DNA of 47,127 nt from a virus. A model generated the notes under the pieces. That model was not told where the DNA came from and ran no database searches. It saw nothing but the letters and a program-made list of their open reading frames with translations. Made by a program: the position numbers and the translations under genes. The number at the start of each line of letters is the position of its first letter. The stretch's first letter is position 1. Positions 29,852 through 37,352 of the stretch are shown here, piece by piece. The stretch lies in the IMG/VR virus record IMGVR_UViG_3300009610_000038, positions 1 through 47,127 of that record; one strand, written 5' to 3'.

Positions 29852-29915
29852 AGGATAGCACGGCGGGTCTACGTTGTCAACTTCAATCGTAGATACGGTT
29901 AATGAACCGTTAATC
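29852..29915 (-). promoter_or_regulatory. Boxed sigma70-type promoter 12 (minus strand)
   Basis: Read on the minus strand: box 29895-29915 with half-sites TTAACGG and TTAACCG 11 bp apart, overlapping the polymerase stop codon, a 14-bp gap, TTGACA (29875-29880), a 17-bp spacer and TATCCT (29852-29857). It drives the 29552-29815 gene. Confidence 0.75.
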
Positions 29916-31898
29916 TTCCAGTTCACCCCAAGACGGCCCCCGGTCAAAATCTACGATAACAGGAACGCGGAGTTTAATAGCGTTCTCTAGTATGTATCGT
30001 AGTTCTTTGAAAGCTTCATTTTGTTGGGGGTTATCATCTACGACACTAAAATCTAATTCGTCATGAACCTGTAGACGGGGAACGCCGGTTACGTTGAATA
30101 CTCCAGCGTAAAAAGCTTTGACCATACCGGCTTTGATTTGATCGGCGGCGCTCCCCTGTAGCCTGTAATTAATTGCCTTGTGTTCTCCAGCCCTTTTAAT
30201 TCGTGAACCCCAACGGTGAATAGCTAGGTCGTAGGGCAATGGGTAGGGGCGTTGTTCGTTGTAGTCATGTTCAATAGGCTCCCAAGTATTAAAGTGTATA
30301 CGTCGTCCGGTTACAGTAGTGATATAGCCCAAGGCTTGCATTTCGTCCGCAGCGGCTTTCATTGTGGGGCGGACGTATGGGTTACCTAAATGATAGGCCT
30401 TGAATACTTCGCGCCCGTCTTTGTCTGTAAATCCATTCTGCCGAATAAGTTTCTTTTCAGACATTCCGTAGATTAGTCCAAAGTTCAAATTCTTAATAGG
30501 CCTCCGGTCAATCTCTTTACCCGTTAGGTTCTTCACATTCGTTTGGGTTGCCTTATGGTAATCCGTCCGGGGGTCACGGCAGTAAGTTTCGCGCAAGGCG
30601 TCACTACCCGGACCTACGGCGTAATGTGCCAAACCCCGGTATTCGATTTGGCTATAGTCATTCTTTTCCCAACATAAATGAAGCCTATCTTTAACGAATA
30701 TCTGGCGAACTCTTTTCCCTAACTTAGTACGAACCGGGATATTCTGTAGGTTCGGATCACTAGAACTGAACCGGCCCGTTTTAGTCCCGTCGTCGTCTCC
30801 CCGTAGCGGGTGAAATTGGCAATGGATTTTCCCGTTAACATTACCATCTAGAATGTAGTTCTTAACGAAGGTTGATCTAACCTTTTCATGCTCCCGTATG
30901 TCGTTGATTAAGGTTGCTACGGGGTGTTCAAGGTTCTTCAACCAATCCTTTCGAAACGACGGGTTGCCTTCCGCTGTTGTGGGGTAGCTAATTCCTACGG
31001 CGTCGAATATCTTAGCTACGTCCCGTCCCGATTGTACGCTGTCAATAGCTATGCCAGTTAGCTCGAATAGGCTAACGTATAACCGGGCAATGTCTACGGC
31101 TAATTCTTCGTACAGTTGTTCGGCTAGGTCTAGGTCTACGGTGACCCCTTCAATCCTCATTTGAATAAGTAACGGGATTAGATCACATTCCATTCGATAT
31201 AATTCTAGTAGCCCGGCGGCTTGTAATCGGGGCCATTGTTTTTCAAGGATACGTATGGGGCTATCAGCGTCCCGTTCTGCATACGGCCCCACAAGGCGGG
31301 GGCTTGCGCGCCAGATATTCAATCGTTGGGTTTGGTTCGGCTTGCCTCCGTAAGCGTTGGCTAGCCATTCGTATAGTTGGGAGGTTTCTTTGCCTTGGCC
31401 TAGATAGGTTACGCCTAGGTTATCTAGGTTCACTAGATTATCTGTATCTAATAAAGCTTCAGCGTATTGTACGTCATGTAATTCCCCTTGAACATGAATA
31501 CTATCATCCGTCAATGAACCTATATCGTATAATAGATTAGCTCCAACTTTTGGGACGTTGGTTTCTAGGATACTCTTTAGCCAACGTAAAGACGGTTCAC
31601 GTTCAAGGTTGTATTGGGGTTCTATCTTATGTCCGATTGGGAAATACCAAGCCCCTTCGTTGCCTAGCCTGTCCCGGGCGGCTACGGAAAACCCTACAGT
31701 TTCAGCCTTGCCCCGTCTCCAGCCCGGCCCGTGTTCGGGGTCATGCTCCCGGCGCTCTAGGTCAATCCCTAGGATGGTTGCGGCGGATAGGTTGGGGTAT
31801 TCGCGGGGCGGGGTCCATCCTGTCGCGGGGGTTGGGGGCGGAACCTTTAATAGGCTCCGTCCTTTCTTAGGCCCCATTTCGTCGTCGTCAAAAAACAT
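29910..31898 (-). CDS. Family A DNA polymerase with 3'-5' exonuclease domain
   Basis: A 662-residue replicative polymerase. The exonuclease domain starts with GIDLERR (D46, E48). The polymerase domain carries TKTGRFSSSDPNLQNIP, motif A KNDYSQIEYR, motif B RRPIKNLNFGLIYGM and motif C LQVHDELDFSV, with the catalytic Asp residues present in A and C. Length is close to other phage enzymes of this type (about 600-750). It copies the phage genome, presumably with the adjacent clamp-like protein. The start overlaps the region just after the clamp stop. Confidence 0.95.
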   Translation of the reverse strand: MFFDDDEMGPKKGRSLLKVPPPTPATGWTPPREYPNLSAATILGIDLERREHDPEHGPGWRRGKAETVGFSVAARDRLGNEGAWYFPIGHKIEPQYNLEREPSLRWLKSILETNVPKVGANLLYDIGSLTDDSIHVQGELHDVQYAEALLDTDNLVNLDNLGVTYLGQGKETSQLYEWLANAYGGKPNQTQRLNIWRASPRLVGPYAERDADSPIRILEKQWPRLQAAGLLELYRMECDLIPLLIQMRIEGVTVDLDLAEQLYEELAVDIARLYVSLFELTGIAIDSVQSGRDVAKIFDAVGISYPTTAEGNPSFRKDWLKNLEHPVATLINDIREHEKVRSTFVKNYILDGNVNGKIHCQFHPLRGDDDGTKTGRFSSSDPNLQNIPVRTKLGKRVRQIFVKDRLHLCWEKNDYSQIEYRGLAHYAVGPGSDALRETYCRDPRTDYHKATQTNVKNLTGKEIDRRPIKNLNFGLIYGMSEKKLIRQNGFTDKDGREVFKAYHLGNPYVRPTMKAAADEMQALGYITTVTGRRIHFNTWEPIEHDYNEQRPYPLPYDLAIHRWGSRIKRAGEHKAINYRLQGSAADQIKAGMVKAFYAGVFNVTGVPRLQVHDELDFSVVDDNPQQNEAFKELRYILENAIKLRVPVIVDFDRGPSWGELED

Positions 31899-31899
31899 T

Positions 31900-33063
31900 T
31901 TAGAACGGGATATCGTCGGGGATAGTTTGAACTAATTGCGGACCCGTTGGCTGGATATCCCGAACCTCCGGAGTTTTCTGAATAAGGATTTGCATTAGCA
32001 TACCCCGGAACCTATCTCCGTAGAATATACCCATTTGATTGTTCTTGGCCTGAAAATCGGCTTGTGTCGCAAGTCCTTTGAACATTCGTAGGTAGTCAAT
32101 ATCGTAGCAGATACCGGAGGGGATACCGTCTATTTCGTAGATAGCTCCGGCTTCGTCAATGTTATGGGTTTGGAGTTTAAGGTTACCAAAGTATACCCGT
32201 CCGTCGTCCGCTTGTCCTTCAATCTTTTCCAAGGCTTCAAAGAAACCTTCCGGAATAGGTATGGCGTTAGCCTGTTCGTTTAGTATCCTGTCAACGTTAG
32301 GATACTGTTCGGTATACAGTTGGGTTCGTATCCAAGATTGATCCTCGAAATAGATTGAAGCTGTCGTAGCTGTAGCGGATATTCCCACAATCTTTTTAGG
32401 TATCTTGGATAGGGCGGTTACGAACGCCTTAGGGAATACTACGCCGGGTTCGGGAATGTATTGTCCATGCCATGCCTCGAAAATGATAGTCCCGTCTGTT
32501 GCGACGGCGGACCCATTACGTAGCAGGACGGACGCGGCAACCATCCGGGGTGCGGTATCGGAAACAACCTCCCCCACAATAGCCAACGCTTCCCTAACGC
32601 TATCGTCAATCGGAAGCATCATAGGGGTTGGAGGTTCGATAACGATTAGCTCCGGGTCTACGCAAGGTATGCTAGCGGAGTATCTACCGGACTTAATGGA
32701 TATCGTATTTGCCAGTTGGGTAATTTGCGTCTTGTCGTCACACTTGGACAAAGCATTTAGAAGCTTCATTGCATTGGGACAGGCTTGGATATCCGTATCA
32801 ATCTTCGTTGCCAGTGTAATAACTCCATTGAAGGCGACGGCCCAACCATTGGTCAATAGGCAATGGGTTTGGTTTACCTGTCCTTCGTCAGACATTGCGG
32901 GTTCTAGGAACTTCAACGCGGATAGTAGCGGGGCAGTAGCAGGGTTAGCTTTGTTAGCCCGGGGTTTCTTTGCCATGTTCGTAGCTCCATAGTAGCAGGG
33001 TTGTCCGATAGGTAACGGGCATAGTTCAACGTCCGTTAGTTCTTTGCCACAAGAACATTTCAC
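31900..33063 (-). CDS. Sliding-clamp-like protein (DNA polymerase III beta-like) with SSB-type C-terminal tip
   Basis: A 387-residue product from GTG at 33063, or 358 from ATG at 32976, which has the better ribosome site (GGAGCTACGAAC). The body (LLSALKFLEPAMSDEGQVNQTHCLLTNGWAVAFNGVITLATKI and later beta-alpha repeats such as PIPEGFFEALEKIEGQ) resembles beta-clamp-like proteins of other siphoviruses encoded next to PolA. The N-terminal extension has Cys3, Cys5, Cys15 and Cys23. The C terminus ends QTIPDDIPF, an SSB-style acidic tip. It probably tethers the polymerase and recruits partners. The GTG overlaps the upstream stop. Confidence 0.75.
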   Translation of the reverse strand: MKCSCGKELTDVELCPLPIGQPCYYGATNMAKKPRANKANPATAPLLSALKFLEPAMSDEGQVNQTHCLLTNGWAVAFNGVITLATKIDTDIQACPNAMKLLNALSKCDDKTQITQLANTISIKSGRYSASIPCVDPELIVIEPPTPMMLPIDDSVREALAIVGEVVSDTAPRMVAASVLLRNGSAVATDGTIIFEAWHGQYIPEPGVVFPKAFVTALSKIPKKIVGISATATTASIYFEDQSWIRTQLYTEQYPNVDRILNEQANAIPIPEGFFEALEKIEGQADDGRVYFGNLKLQTHNIDEAGAIYEIDGIPSGICYDIDYLRMFKGLATQADFQAKNNQMGIFYGDRFRGMLMQILIQKTPEVRDIQPTGPQLVQTIPDDIPF

Positions 33064-33253: not shown

Positions 33254-34834
33254 TCAATAGATGTAGCTCAAGACTTGAGGATGGGGGCGGTTAATCCAAA
33301 CGCGGACCTTTCGGGGTGTACGAAGTCTAGCTATCTGTTGTAAGGCAAGGTCCGTTGATAGCGGCGGTTCGTCGGCGCTACGCTGTCTCCACCACTCATT
33401 AGCCCTATGTTTCGCGAAGCCTATATGGTCAAACGAAACGTATTCCTGAAACATCTTCAGGCCACAGAAATAGGTTATCTTGATATTTGCAATGCCGGAT
33501 TTCTTACCAATGTGACGGTTATAATGCGTCCGGTCTACGTCGTAGGTTTCGATTAAAGGTTGGCCCGTAGATATCAGGTCCCGGGTATCAGCTTGGCGTA
33601 CCATCTTTTGAGCAAAGACGAATTCAGTACCGCAACCAATACAGAACTTGGCGCGGGCATGGTTATAGGTTCCGCATACGTCGCAAATCTTTACGGGAGC
33701 GTCCCCGCCTACGTTGGCCCCTTTGGTCCGGGGGATACGGGGATCATCTATCGGGCCTAGCCGGAGGGTATTGCGGGCGAAGTCCAAGACAAGGCAATTG
33801 GTCTTGCCTGTCTCCGGGGACGGGCGGGTACCGCGTCCAACCATTTGAACCCATAGGCCGGGCGATAGTGTGGGGCGTAACATTCCAATCATGTCTATGG
33901 GCGGATGATCGAAGCCCGTAGTCAATACGTTGTTGTTCGTGACAGCCCGGAGCCTTCCGGCTTTGAAATCGTCAATGATCTTTTCCCGGTCTTTGGTCTT
34001 GGAATGTACGGCTCCGGTTGGGATACCGTAATAGTTCAGGATTTCGGCAACGTGTTCGGCGTGTTCGATACCGCTACAGAATATCAACCAAGCTTGGCGG
34101 TTATGCCCGTGCTTAATCATTTCCTGAACTACGGCGTTATTAATGTCGTTCTTGTCTACGGCTTTCTGCAATTGGGATTGGATATACTCCCCCTTTGCCA
34201 TGTCTACGTTTGCAACGTCCAAGGCGGTTTGCGTCTGACGGGGGATAGGGGTTGATAGATAGCCTTCCGATATCAGCCGGGTAAATCCGTCCGTATTGCA
34301 AATGTTGTAGCAAAGGTCCGTAAATATTCCGTTGGTTGTCAATAGCCCTTGGCCTAGCCTGTACCATGTCGCGGTTAGACCAATGACCTTTAGATGCGGG
34401 TTGATAACCTTCAATCCTTCAATGACCCGCTGATACATTGTGCTACTGTCGGGGTTCAGTAAATGTGCTTCGTCAATAATTAGCAAGTCACGGTGTCCAA
34501 ACCGTTCAATACATTTTACGACGGAGGCAACGCCCCCAAACATGATTGGTTGCACGAAGTCACGTTGACCTAGCCCGGCGGAATAGACGCCGATAGGTGC
34601 GGTAGGCCATGCCAACTGTAAGTGTTTAATGTTCTGTTCAATCAACTCCCGGACATGAGTTAAAATCATTATCCGTTGCCAAGGCCAGTAATGAAATACG
34701 GTACGGAGGAAGTCCGCTATGACGATAGATTTGCCTGTCCCCGTTGGCATTGCAATAACGGGGTTCCCCTTGTTTTCGTTGAAATACGAAAACAAACTAT
34801 TGACGGCTTCCGTTTGGTAGTAACGCGGTATCAT
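33254..34834 (-). CDS. DEAH-box superfamily 2 helicase with zinc finger
   Basis: A 526-residue helicase. Motif I MPTGTGKS (residues 29-36), motif II DEAH (121-124), motif III TAT (about 153-155), and motifs V-VI with TTGFDHPPIDM and QMVGRGTRPSPETGK. A CxxC...CxxC zinc finger (CDVCGTYNHARAKFCIGCG, about residues 385-403) follows the helicase core. Similar phage helicases act in replication initiation or fork remodelling. The gene overlaps the nuclease gene upstream by 4 bases. Confidence 0.93.
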   Translation of the reverse strand: MIPRYYQTEAVNSLFSYFNENKGNPVIAMPTGTGKSIVIADFLRTVFHYWPWQRIMILTHVRELIEQNIKHLQLAWPTAPIGVYSAGLGQRDFVQPIMFGGVASVVKCIERFGHRDLLIIDEAHLLNPDSSTMYQRVIEGLKVINPHLKVIGLTATWYRLGQGLLTTNGIFTDLCYNICNTDGFTRLISEGYLSTPIPRQTQTALDVANVDMAKGEYIQSQLQKAVDKNDINNAVVQEMIKHGHNRQAWLIFCSGIEHAEHVAEILNYYGIPTGAVHSKTKDREKIIDDFKAGRLRAVTNNNVLTTGFDHPPIDMIGMLRPTLSPGLWVQMVGRGTRPSPETGKTNCLVLDFARNTLRLGPIDDPRIPRTKGANVGGDAPVKICDVCGTYNHARAKFCIGCGTEFVFAQKMVRQADTRDLISTGQPLIETYDVDRTHYNRHIGKKSGIANIKITYFCGLKMFQEYVSFDHIGFAKHRANEWWRQRSADEPPLSTDLALQQIARLRTPRKVRVWINRPHPQVLSYIY

Positions 34835-35664
34835 AGAATAGACTTCCAGTTGGTACAGCCTTTCGGGATAAACTCCGTTGGTATTGTCTGTTGAAAGTGT
34901 CTACAGAACCATTGCCCGTTATCAATGGGTTCGGCATTGAAGCACGAACGGCAACTAATGTCAAGACGTTCTCCCCTATGGCATACGCCTACGAATGGGC
35001 ACATTTTACATTCGAAGTAGGTTTCTTGTAGGGCAATGCGGGGCGGTAGGACCATTGAACGAATGATCTTGTCCGCCTTAGCGTGTAAGTACTCGGCTTG
35101 GGTATAGTCCAGCTTCACAACTTCAATATGTATATCATCGTCATTCTTGCCAACGGCGTAATATAATCCGTTCTTATATCCGTAGGTTTGTCCATAGCTA
35201 CACATTTGGGCGTAGTGTCGGGGCTTGGAACGGAGTAGCCCCTTATCCTTCAAATCGGCAAACGATTTAGAATTATGGGTTTTGAATTCCAATACCATAG
35301 GCTCCGGGAAATCCTTATACGGTGTTGTCCCAATACTATCCGTTGAACCTCCGTAATGACCCCCATACCCCACAATACGGAACTGTTCGTTATTCGGAGC
35401 GTCATAGATATTGAAACCAATACCCTTTAGATATTCAATACAACGCTGTTCTTCGCGGTGCCCCCGATTGAATAACCGGAGCATACGTCCGCTGAATATT
35501 TCCTTTCTAGCCCAACGAAACGCTAGCCAAATATAGGCTTCGCAATCGTGCCCTATTACGCTGGCCCCTAAATGGTTACGGTGTTCTTCAGCGTATAGTT
35601 CAACGCAATGCCTATCAATATCATTGCGTATACGTTCGGATAGTATCTTGAGGTTTATAGACAT
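34831..35664 (-). CDS. PD-(D/E)XK (Cas4/RecB-like) exonuclease
   Basis: A 277-residue nuclease. The active-site pattern is GGSTDSIG (D109) and MVLEFKTH (E126, K128), with an upstream H39 (IGHDCEAY) as in RecB-family enzymes. A cysteine cluster follows (FECKMCPFVGVCH, then ISCRSCFN), resembling the Fe-S cluster of Cas4/AddB-type nucleases. With the adjacent SSB and Sak4 genes it forms an exonuclease-SSB-annealase recombination set. It does not look like an adaptation Cas4, as no other cas gene is present. Confidence 0.88.
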   Translation of the reverse strand: MSINLKILSERIRNDIDRHCVELYAEEHRNHLGASVIGHDCEAYIWLAFRWARKEIFSGRMLRLFNRGHREEQRCIEYLKGIGFNIYDAPNNEQFRIVGYGGHYGGSTDSIGTTPYKDFPEPMVLEFKTHNSKSFADLKDKGLLRSKPRHYAQMCSYGQTYGYKNGLYYAVGKNDDDIHIEVVKLDYTQAEYLHAKADKIIRSMVLPPRIALQETYFECKMCPFVGVCHRGERLDISCRSCFNAEPIDNGQWFCRHFQQTIPTEFIPKGCTNWKSIL

Positions 35665-35803: not shown

Positions 35804-36649
35804 TTAGCGGGGGCCTCCCCAAGCTGGAGCCTGTCCCGGCGCTCCGGGCTGGCCCGGCCATTGCGGGGCAGCTTGTGGGGGCTGTTGGGGTGCCCCGGGC
35901 GCGATCGCTCCCCATTGGGGCTGTCCGGGCATTGGCGCGGGGGCCGGGGCCGGAGGGGGCGGGTAGGGTTGGCCCGGGAAGGGCTGTCCGGGCGGCGGGG
36001 CCGGGGGTAGGGGCTGTCTAGGCGTTAGGCCGGGGGGAAGGGGCTGGTCTCCCCAAGGTTGCCCGGGGGGCGCTCCGGCGGGTTGCGGGGCGGCGGTAGT
36101 CCATTGACCGGCGGCGGGCGGCGGCGCTCCAGTAGGCGCGGGCGCTCCCCCTTGCCATGCTCCGGGCGCGGTACCGCCTTGCGGGAACTGTTGGGCCGTC
36201 TGTTGTGGGGCCTGTCCCCCTTTGCCGGGGTCGTTGCCCATTGTGTCTTTGAGGCCCCGAATATTGTTGATTGGTCCCCGTTCGCCTTGGGTAACTACGG
36301 CGTGAACCATAAAGGGGACGTTGTGCAACATTGGAAGGTAGTTGTCGGCGGGGGCGTTGTCTTGGGCTACGATATCATATTGCCCCACAACATGGCAGAT
36401 AGCGGACAGTTGCTTATAGGCGATTTCAACTGTCGTCGCATTGCTATGCCAAAGGTTCAGATTATAGTATAAGACCCGGGTTTGAAATTGTCCTTCAATG
36501 ATCTTGCATTGAAGTTCAATCATGCCATTTTGGCCGTCCCGGGTAGGTTTGACGTTGGATTTGTCAATGACAACTTTGTACCATCCTTCGGGTACAGGGT
36601 CCAACGCTACTTGTGGGGCTACCGTTCTCGCATTGAATTGAAACGCCAT
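35804..36649 (-). CDS. Single-stranded DNA-binding protein (DUF669 type) with long disordered tail
   Basis: A 281-residue protein. Residues 1-140 are a DUF669-type SSB domain: VPEGWYKVVIDKSNVKPTRDGQNGMIELQCKIIEGQFQTRVLYYNLNLWHSNATTVEIAYKQLSAICHVVG. Residues 145-281 are a Pro/Gly/Gln/Ala-rich disordered tail with PPG and PAP repeats, ending QAPAWGGPR, without the acidic DDDIPF tip common to bacterial SSBs. The codons of the tail are extremely GC-rich and repetitive. AAAGGAC precedes the ATG. Confidence 0.85.
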   Translation of the reverse strand: MAFQFNARTVAPQVALDPVPEGWYKVVIDKSNVKPTRDGQNGMIELQCKIIEGQFQTRVLYYNLNLWHSNATTVEIAYKQLSAICHVVGQYDIVAQDNAPADNYLPMLHNVPFMVHAVVTQGERGPINNIRGLKDTMGNDPGKGGQAPQQTAQQFPQGGTAPGAWQGGAPAPTGAPPPAAGQWTTAAPQPAGAPPGQPWGDQPLPPGLTPRQPLPPAPPPGQPFPGQPYPPPPAPAPAPMPGQPQWGAIAPGAPQQPPQAAPQWPGQPGAPGQAPAWGGPR

Positions 36650-36662
36650 GGTTTAGTCCTTT

Positions 36663-37352
36663 CTACCGTTTGGCTACATGACCTGACATTATCTTTTGAA
36701 AGATGTGAGACAAGTTGGGAGGTTCCCATTCGTCCAAGGCCCCGGACCTGTCCCCTGCTATGTTAGTTTGATCCGGCCAACAACGCAAGGCTTCTATTCT
36801 TTGGCCGGTTTGCGGATTGCGTAAAATATTATATTGAAAGATTTCGTCCGGAAAATACGGAACTTGGTTCTGCAATTGTTGGCCCGGGAATGACGGTTGA
36901 TTGAACATCATTCCGGTTTGGTCTTTGCTGTATTCTTGTTTCGCAATCAATACGACGTTTCTATCCGGCATATCCCGGAAGTCCCGGACTATCTGCAAAC
37001 CTTGGGTAATGATTTCGCCGTAGGCCTTGCGAGGGTCACGGGTCTTAGCCATTTCGGCCTTTAGTATCTGTTCAACGATTTCGGAAATACTATCAAGTCC
37101 TATAGTGTTGAATTGGCGGCTTTCGTTGCTGCTAATGCTCCAATGGTAAGCCTCCCGCAAATCGCTAAGGTTACGGATTTCAAAATACGGGAGGTTATAC
37201 GTTCGTAAGCTTAATAGTCCGCCTTCCGCTGAAAATATGACGGGAGTAGGGGCGGTAGCGATTAGCCGGGTCTTTCCAACTTTCGGGGGGCCATAGACCA
37301 GAACCTTAACGCCCCGGGATTGGTAAGACGCTGTAGATTGTAGCTGTATCAT
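36663..37352 (-). CDS. Sak4-type (RecA/Rad51-like) single-strand annealing protein
   Basis: A 229-residue RecA-core ATPase. Walker A GPPKVGKT (residues 21-28), AEGGLLSLR after strand 2, and Walker B-like NTIGLDSIS (D87). The small size and an adjacent SSB match the Sak4 / AAA_24 group, phage recombinases that anneal strands together with their cognate SSB. It overlaps the upstream gene by 4 bases. Confidence 0.9.
   Translation of the reverse strand: MIQLQSTASYQSRGVKVLVYGPPKVGKTRLIATAPTPVIFSAEGGLLSLRTYNLPYFEIRNLSDLREAYHWSISSNESRQFNTIGLDSISEIVEQILKAEMAKTRDPRKAYGEIITQGLQIVRDFRDMPDRNVVLIAKQEYSKDQTGMMFNQPSFPGQQLQNQVPYFPDEIFQYNILRNPQTGQRIEALRCWPDQTNIAGDRSGALDEWEPPNLSHIFQKIMSGHVAKR

Follow-up and report, generated by a model that had tools for sequence, protein, structure and literature searches.

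The C-terminal tip of bacterial SSB (SSB-Ct; MDFDDDIPF in E. coli), in which D-D-I-P-F stands at the extreme C terminus after a flexible linker, is among the best-studied bacterial docking peptides and is usually regarded as part of SSB. Bacterial clamps are not known to have a C-terminal tail with an SSB-type tip. The pockets into which SSB-Ct docks hold the terminal Phe and acidic residues; in E. coli RadD, which SSB-Ct binds and stimulates, the pocket contains Arg21, Arg49, and Arg145 (PMC10238739). In phage HK620, the end of the cognate SSB (its last six residues, NDYPPF) is required by the annealase Sak4 both for stimulation and for binding to single-stranded DNA covered with SSB, and an active Sak4 is also encoded by phage PA73 (PMC5928155).

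The window analyzed here, the 47,127-base viral record IMGVR_UViG_3300009610_000038, has in common with HK620 a replication/recombination block with Sak4 (Table 1) and in common with bacterial SSB a D-D-I-P-F end following a flexible linker. In HK620, however, the functionally required tip is on SSB, whereas the DUF669 SSB of the window phage is tipless and the sequence places the tip on the sliding clamp; in relatives, it is found on a small four-cysteine (Cys4) protein or a RadD-like helicase, and not on an OB-fold SSB. A search of the available literature for an SSB-type tip on a clamp found no paper. We propose that the clamp tail is a selected docking peptide of the SSB-Ct type that has moved off SSB onto the clamp, the small Cys4 protein, or the helicase, usually onto one of them, and we put the probability of this reading at roughly 0.7.

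Table 1. Replication genes of the window and the tail features of its clamp
Feature	Position	Strand	Basis and remarks
Family A DNA polymerase	29910..31898	-	PF00476, E = 2e-67; directly downstream of clamp
Sliding clamp (DNA polymerase processivity factor)	31900..32976	-	358 aa from likely ATG; phrog_947, fold, profile
SSB-Ct-type tip DDIPF	31903..31917	-	Followed by stop TAA (31900-31902); sequence, conserved in homologues
Linker, last clamp strand to tip	31918..31983 (limits approximate)	-	Low confidence, probably disordered
RadD-like SF2 helicase	33254..34834	-	Best PDB match E. coli RadD, E = 2.8e-57; possible tip reader
Cas4-type exonuclease	34831..35664	-	phrog_1990, E = 1e-90
SSB-like protein (DUF669)	35804..36649	-	PF05037, E = 3e-10; phrog_6015; tipless, ends AWGGPR
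Sak4-like annealase	36663..37352	-	phrog_124, E = 2e-43; possible tip reader

The identity of the clamp rests on several matches. It matches phrog_947, annotated as "DNA polymerase processivity factor" (E = 6e-58), and a profile of the clamp family finds DNA polymerase III beta (E = 7e-6). The AlphaFold2 model (mean pLDDT, 91) has the three-domain fold of the beta sliding clamp, and the 50 Foldseek matches listed for it (best E = 5e-18) are all beta clamps from bacteria, alone or in complexes. The predicted fold and the detectable profile match are shared with DnaN, the bacterial beta clamp, but identity in structural alignments is 11 to 16%, and DnaN is not known to have the tipped C-terminal tail. 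The minus-strand clamp frame opens with GTG and spans 31900 to 33063; the true start is probably the ATG at 32976 rather than the GTG at 33063, as suggested by a GGAG 8 nt upstream of the ATG and by the clamp homologues. The in-frame extension before the likely start (32977 to 33063) encodes the Cys-rich stretch MKCSCGKELTDVELCPLPIGQPCYYG.

This frame ends ...LVQTIPDDIPF, with TIPDDIPF at 31903 to 31926, exactly as the initial annotation had read it. The likeness to bacterial SSB that was claimed there holds as to type, with (D/E)n-I/V-P-F at the extreme C terminus, and amounts to five of the last six residues when PDDIPF is set against the E. coli end FDDDIPF. The pattern (D/E)(I/V)PF followed by a stop codon occurs once in the entire 47,127-base record, at the end of the clamp. 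In the model, mean pLDDT falls from about 80 to 66 past residue 360 and is 66 to 67 over residues 371 to 387. This low-pLDDT tail, together with homologue linkers that are variable in length and unalignable with one another, is consistent with a flexible linker such as precedes SSB-Ct. The OB-fold SSB domain (PF00436) is absent from the tip-bearing protein, the carrier being a beta clamp.

Homologues were collected by clamp similarity alone, regardless of the tip, and the set is therefore not selected on it; clustering at 90% identity gave 68 nonredundant clamps (lineages), 27 of which end in the tip. Residues past the last conserved strand number 18 to 93 in tipped clamps versus 5 to 14 in tipless ones. 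Tails of more than 14 residues are found in 29 of the 68 clamps, comprising the 27 with an exact tip and 2 whose longer tails end in what look like decayed tips (EEDDNFPPF in L038 and DYSDDISV in L043). Conservation of the last three tip positions is partly due to the definition used, which required just one acidic residue within the last eight. No such effect explains the Asp run at -4 to -6, where Asp predominates beyond what the definition demanded. These comparisons support a clamp tip of the SSB type that is under selection. Two clamps close to tipped ones, L065 (DDEIQF) and L043 (DDISV), have either decayed tips or sequencing errors.

Most genomes with a tipless clamp have the same tip at the end of a small open reading frame that lies between the helicase and clamp genes. 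Its product has roughly 65 to 100 residues and a Cys4 pattern of roughly (S/T)C-x-x-C ... C ... PP-x-x-x-I/V-x-x-G-C ... DIPF. All four of the small proteins tested match phrog_23504 (function unknown), and in the papers searched the family had not been connected with clamp tails or with a tip of the SSB type. A Rhizobium phage fits the pattern, having a tipped small protein and a tipless clamp. When the first set was searched with a small-protein profile that was built from tipped examples and is biased accordingly, tipless small proteins were found only in L061, L083, and the L075 group, and the clamps of all three are tipped. On the tree of clamp-core columns these three cluster within a group in which the other members combine a small-protein tip with a tipless clamp.

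The initial annotation had named homologues that lack the tip without compensation as grounds for refutation, and this check turns out mostly in its favor. For 31 of the 41 tipless-clamp lineages the tip is found elsewhere, on the small Cys4 protein in 29 (including phiAxp-1, checked individually) and on the RadD-like helicase in 2, but the other 10 show no exact tip. Across all 68 lineages the tip is thus on the clamp only in 25, the small protein only in 29, the helicase only in 2, the clamp and small protein alike in 2 (L055 and L074), and on none in 10. These last include the two decayed clamp tails and several fragments; by the strict pattern, three long records (D0, L046, and L088) have no tip in the whole record, so the tip is not strictly required. 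One tip per replisome is usual, a strong tendency and not a law. Avoidance between the carriers gave a Fisher p value of 1.6e-8 with kinship ignored. On the clamp-core tree the clamp tip must change about 7 times, with 5 or more of the changes on well-supported branches, and kinship-corrected pairing for exclusivity yielded 3 independent well-supported contrasts only, a number at which significance is unreachable. The earlier proposal that the tip was transferred to the clamp stands insofar as the clamp carries it and the phage SSB does not, but it was too narrow, since the tip has three alternative carriers and the clamp is just one of them.

The third carrier, the helicase, is encoded in the same block as the clamp and just upstream of it. 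E. coli RadD is its closest solved relative, but the window protein scores 272 bits against the cutoff of 720 for the RadD equivalog NF053632 and is by this profile RadD-like, not RadD. In the Queuovirinae phages JenK1 and NP1 the tip is at the end of this helicase (e.g., PDFDDDIPF). Phages of Escherichia alone thus show all three placements, on the small protein in Shy, the clamp in FtMidnight, and the helicase in JenK1. A second, separate set of 34 lineages was obtained by a search with the NP1 helicase. The helicase is tipped in 25 of these, none of which has the small protein; 4 combine an untipped helicase with a small protein that is tipped, and 5 have neither in exact form, although in two of the five the small protein has a variant end. 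All 16 clamps with complete ends in this set are untipped. In a predicted structure of a tipped helicase, the tail (residues 569 to 591) was below pLDDT 50 and gave no information on docking of the tip in the RadD pocket of the same protein.

Other proteins of the block were surveyed for the same end. The DUF669 SSB of the window ends ...AWGGPR, which bears out the earlier remark that it has no tip, and the tip is absent from all 56 DUF669 homologues. The SSBs of these 56 lineages have a recurrent C terminus of their own, often P/A-W-G-x-R after a Q/P/G-rich linker, which is possibly a different docking tip. The tip is also found in none of 42 Sak4 proteins, none of 58 polymerases, and 1 of 60 Cas4-type exonucleases (L068, 2547 to 3629, ending DSDIPF). 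The C-terminal Cys motif of the exonuclease is similar to that of the tip-bearing small protein of relatives, and the small-protein profile weakly matches the C terminus of the window exonuclease (E about 4e-4). The window polymerase starts MFFDDDE and is without the C-terminal (L/M/S)FF of many relatives, which resembles clamp-binding peptides; MFFD starts occur in several relatives, mostly with tipless clamps. A classical SSB (PF00436) was found in 0 of 17 records (the window and 16 relatives), as was a bacterial-type clamp loader when searched for as delta-prime/delta (PF13177 and PF06144). Positive controls gave matches.

Several other explanations of the tail were weighed against the docking-peptide reading. 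A chance C-terminal likeness in the window clamp alone might be argued from a match to E. coli SSB of just five of the last six residues, but it is refuted by the homologues, with the tip in 27 of 68 clamp lineages and 25 of 34 helicases as well as on the small protein, and its probability is negligible. Some DNA-binding proteins are regulated by acidic C termini, and the tails here are often acidic, as would be expected if they worked by charge alone, through DNA mimicry or autoinhibition of the clamp or helicase, with no SSB-Ct pocket. This is very improbable, given that Ile-Pro-Phe recurs at the extreme C terminus of three unrelated carriers, that linkers vary freely, and that long tails without Ile-Pro-Phe are almost absent. 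The tip could also be a decoy for host SSB-interacting nucleases or helicases, or could hide the phage fork from defense, which would fit with a phage SSB that lacks the tip and with carriage of the tip by any replisome subunit. A decoy need not sit on fork proteins, however, and every carrier seen either functions in replication or recombination or is encoded in that gene block, making this account unlikely.

It is a tenable alternative, to which we would give somewhat less than even odds, that a phage protein encoded in the same operon reads the tip, so that the annealase Sak4 or the RadD-like helicase is brought to the clamp or small protein. The dependence of HK620 Sak4 on the end of its SSB is a precedent; PA73, the other phage with an active Sak4 (PMC5928155), is taken to be Pseudomonas phage 73 (L014), whose clamp ends YEDDIPF. 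In addition, all 56 of the relatives' records searched contain a match to the Sak4 family, with a profile that also matches many cellular genomes. Sak4 could nevertheless be served by the recurrent C terminus of the phage SSBs themselves, often P-W-G-x-R. A RadD-like reader is attractive because the helicase adjoins the clamp and because E. coli RadD binds SSB-Ct (PMC10238739), and phage homologues retain the hydrophobic positions of the pocket and have Lys at position 145 in 59 of 64 cases. Arg21 and Arg49, two of the three pocket arginines, are nevertheless gone in nearly all of them, and Queuovirinae-type phages have the tip on the helicase itself; the simple model in which RadD reads the tip was dropped on these two grounds. 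Furthermore, across hosts the tip departs very little from the host SSB consensus, as would be expected if host pockets read it.

Under the preferred reading of the tail as a docking peptide, the DUF669 protein would coat phage single-stranded DNA without a tip, leaving the fork with no SSB-Ct landing pad, and the tip would be supplied on another fork protein: the clamp in the window, or else the small Cys4 protein or the RadD-like helicase. On its flexible linker, the tip would use its terminal Phe and its acidic residues to dock in SSB-Ct pockets, and the docked partners would be proteins needed at the phage fork. In the bacterial beta clamp the C terminus is at the edge of the cleft where partners bind, and the tail would therefore project on the side of the polymerase and loader. 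A wider interpretation, for and against which the odds appear evenly balanced, is that these phages have a "split SSB," with DNA coating and partner docking in two proteins and a portable tip, maintained by selection in about one copy per replisome, whose carrier changes among the clamp, the RadD-like helicase, and a dedicated small Cys4 adaptor that would mainly present the tip.

The recruitment of host SSB-binding proteins that the initial annotation proposed is only partly supported. Host SSB-interacting proteins are favored, if weakly supported, as the main partners: the preference for host readers is modest and comes from the closeness of the tip to the SSB consensus of hosts, which is seen on all three carriers and across many hosts. 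Among them the chi subunit of the host clamp loader is an attractive candidate reader, because the phages encode a beta-type clamp without a recognizable bacterial-type loader. A match between tip variants and hosts was also considered, some alphaproteobacterial phages having DEIPF, but was dropped because the Rhizobium phage has GDIPF. The search of plasmid SSBs yielded mainly those of enterobacteria.

If phages retain the tip while changing its carrier, then the tip is a modular signal independent of single-stranded DNA binding, and the alternative carriers are natural swaps for asking which SSB partners the phage fork really needs. The arrangement suggests how a beta-type clamp without a recognizable loader gene of its own might engage the host machinery, and it offers a testable role for phrog_23504.
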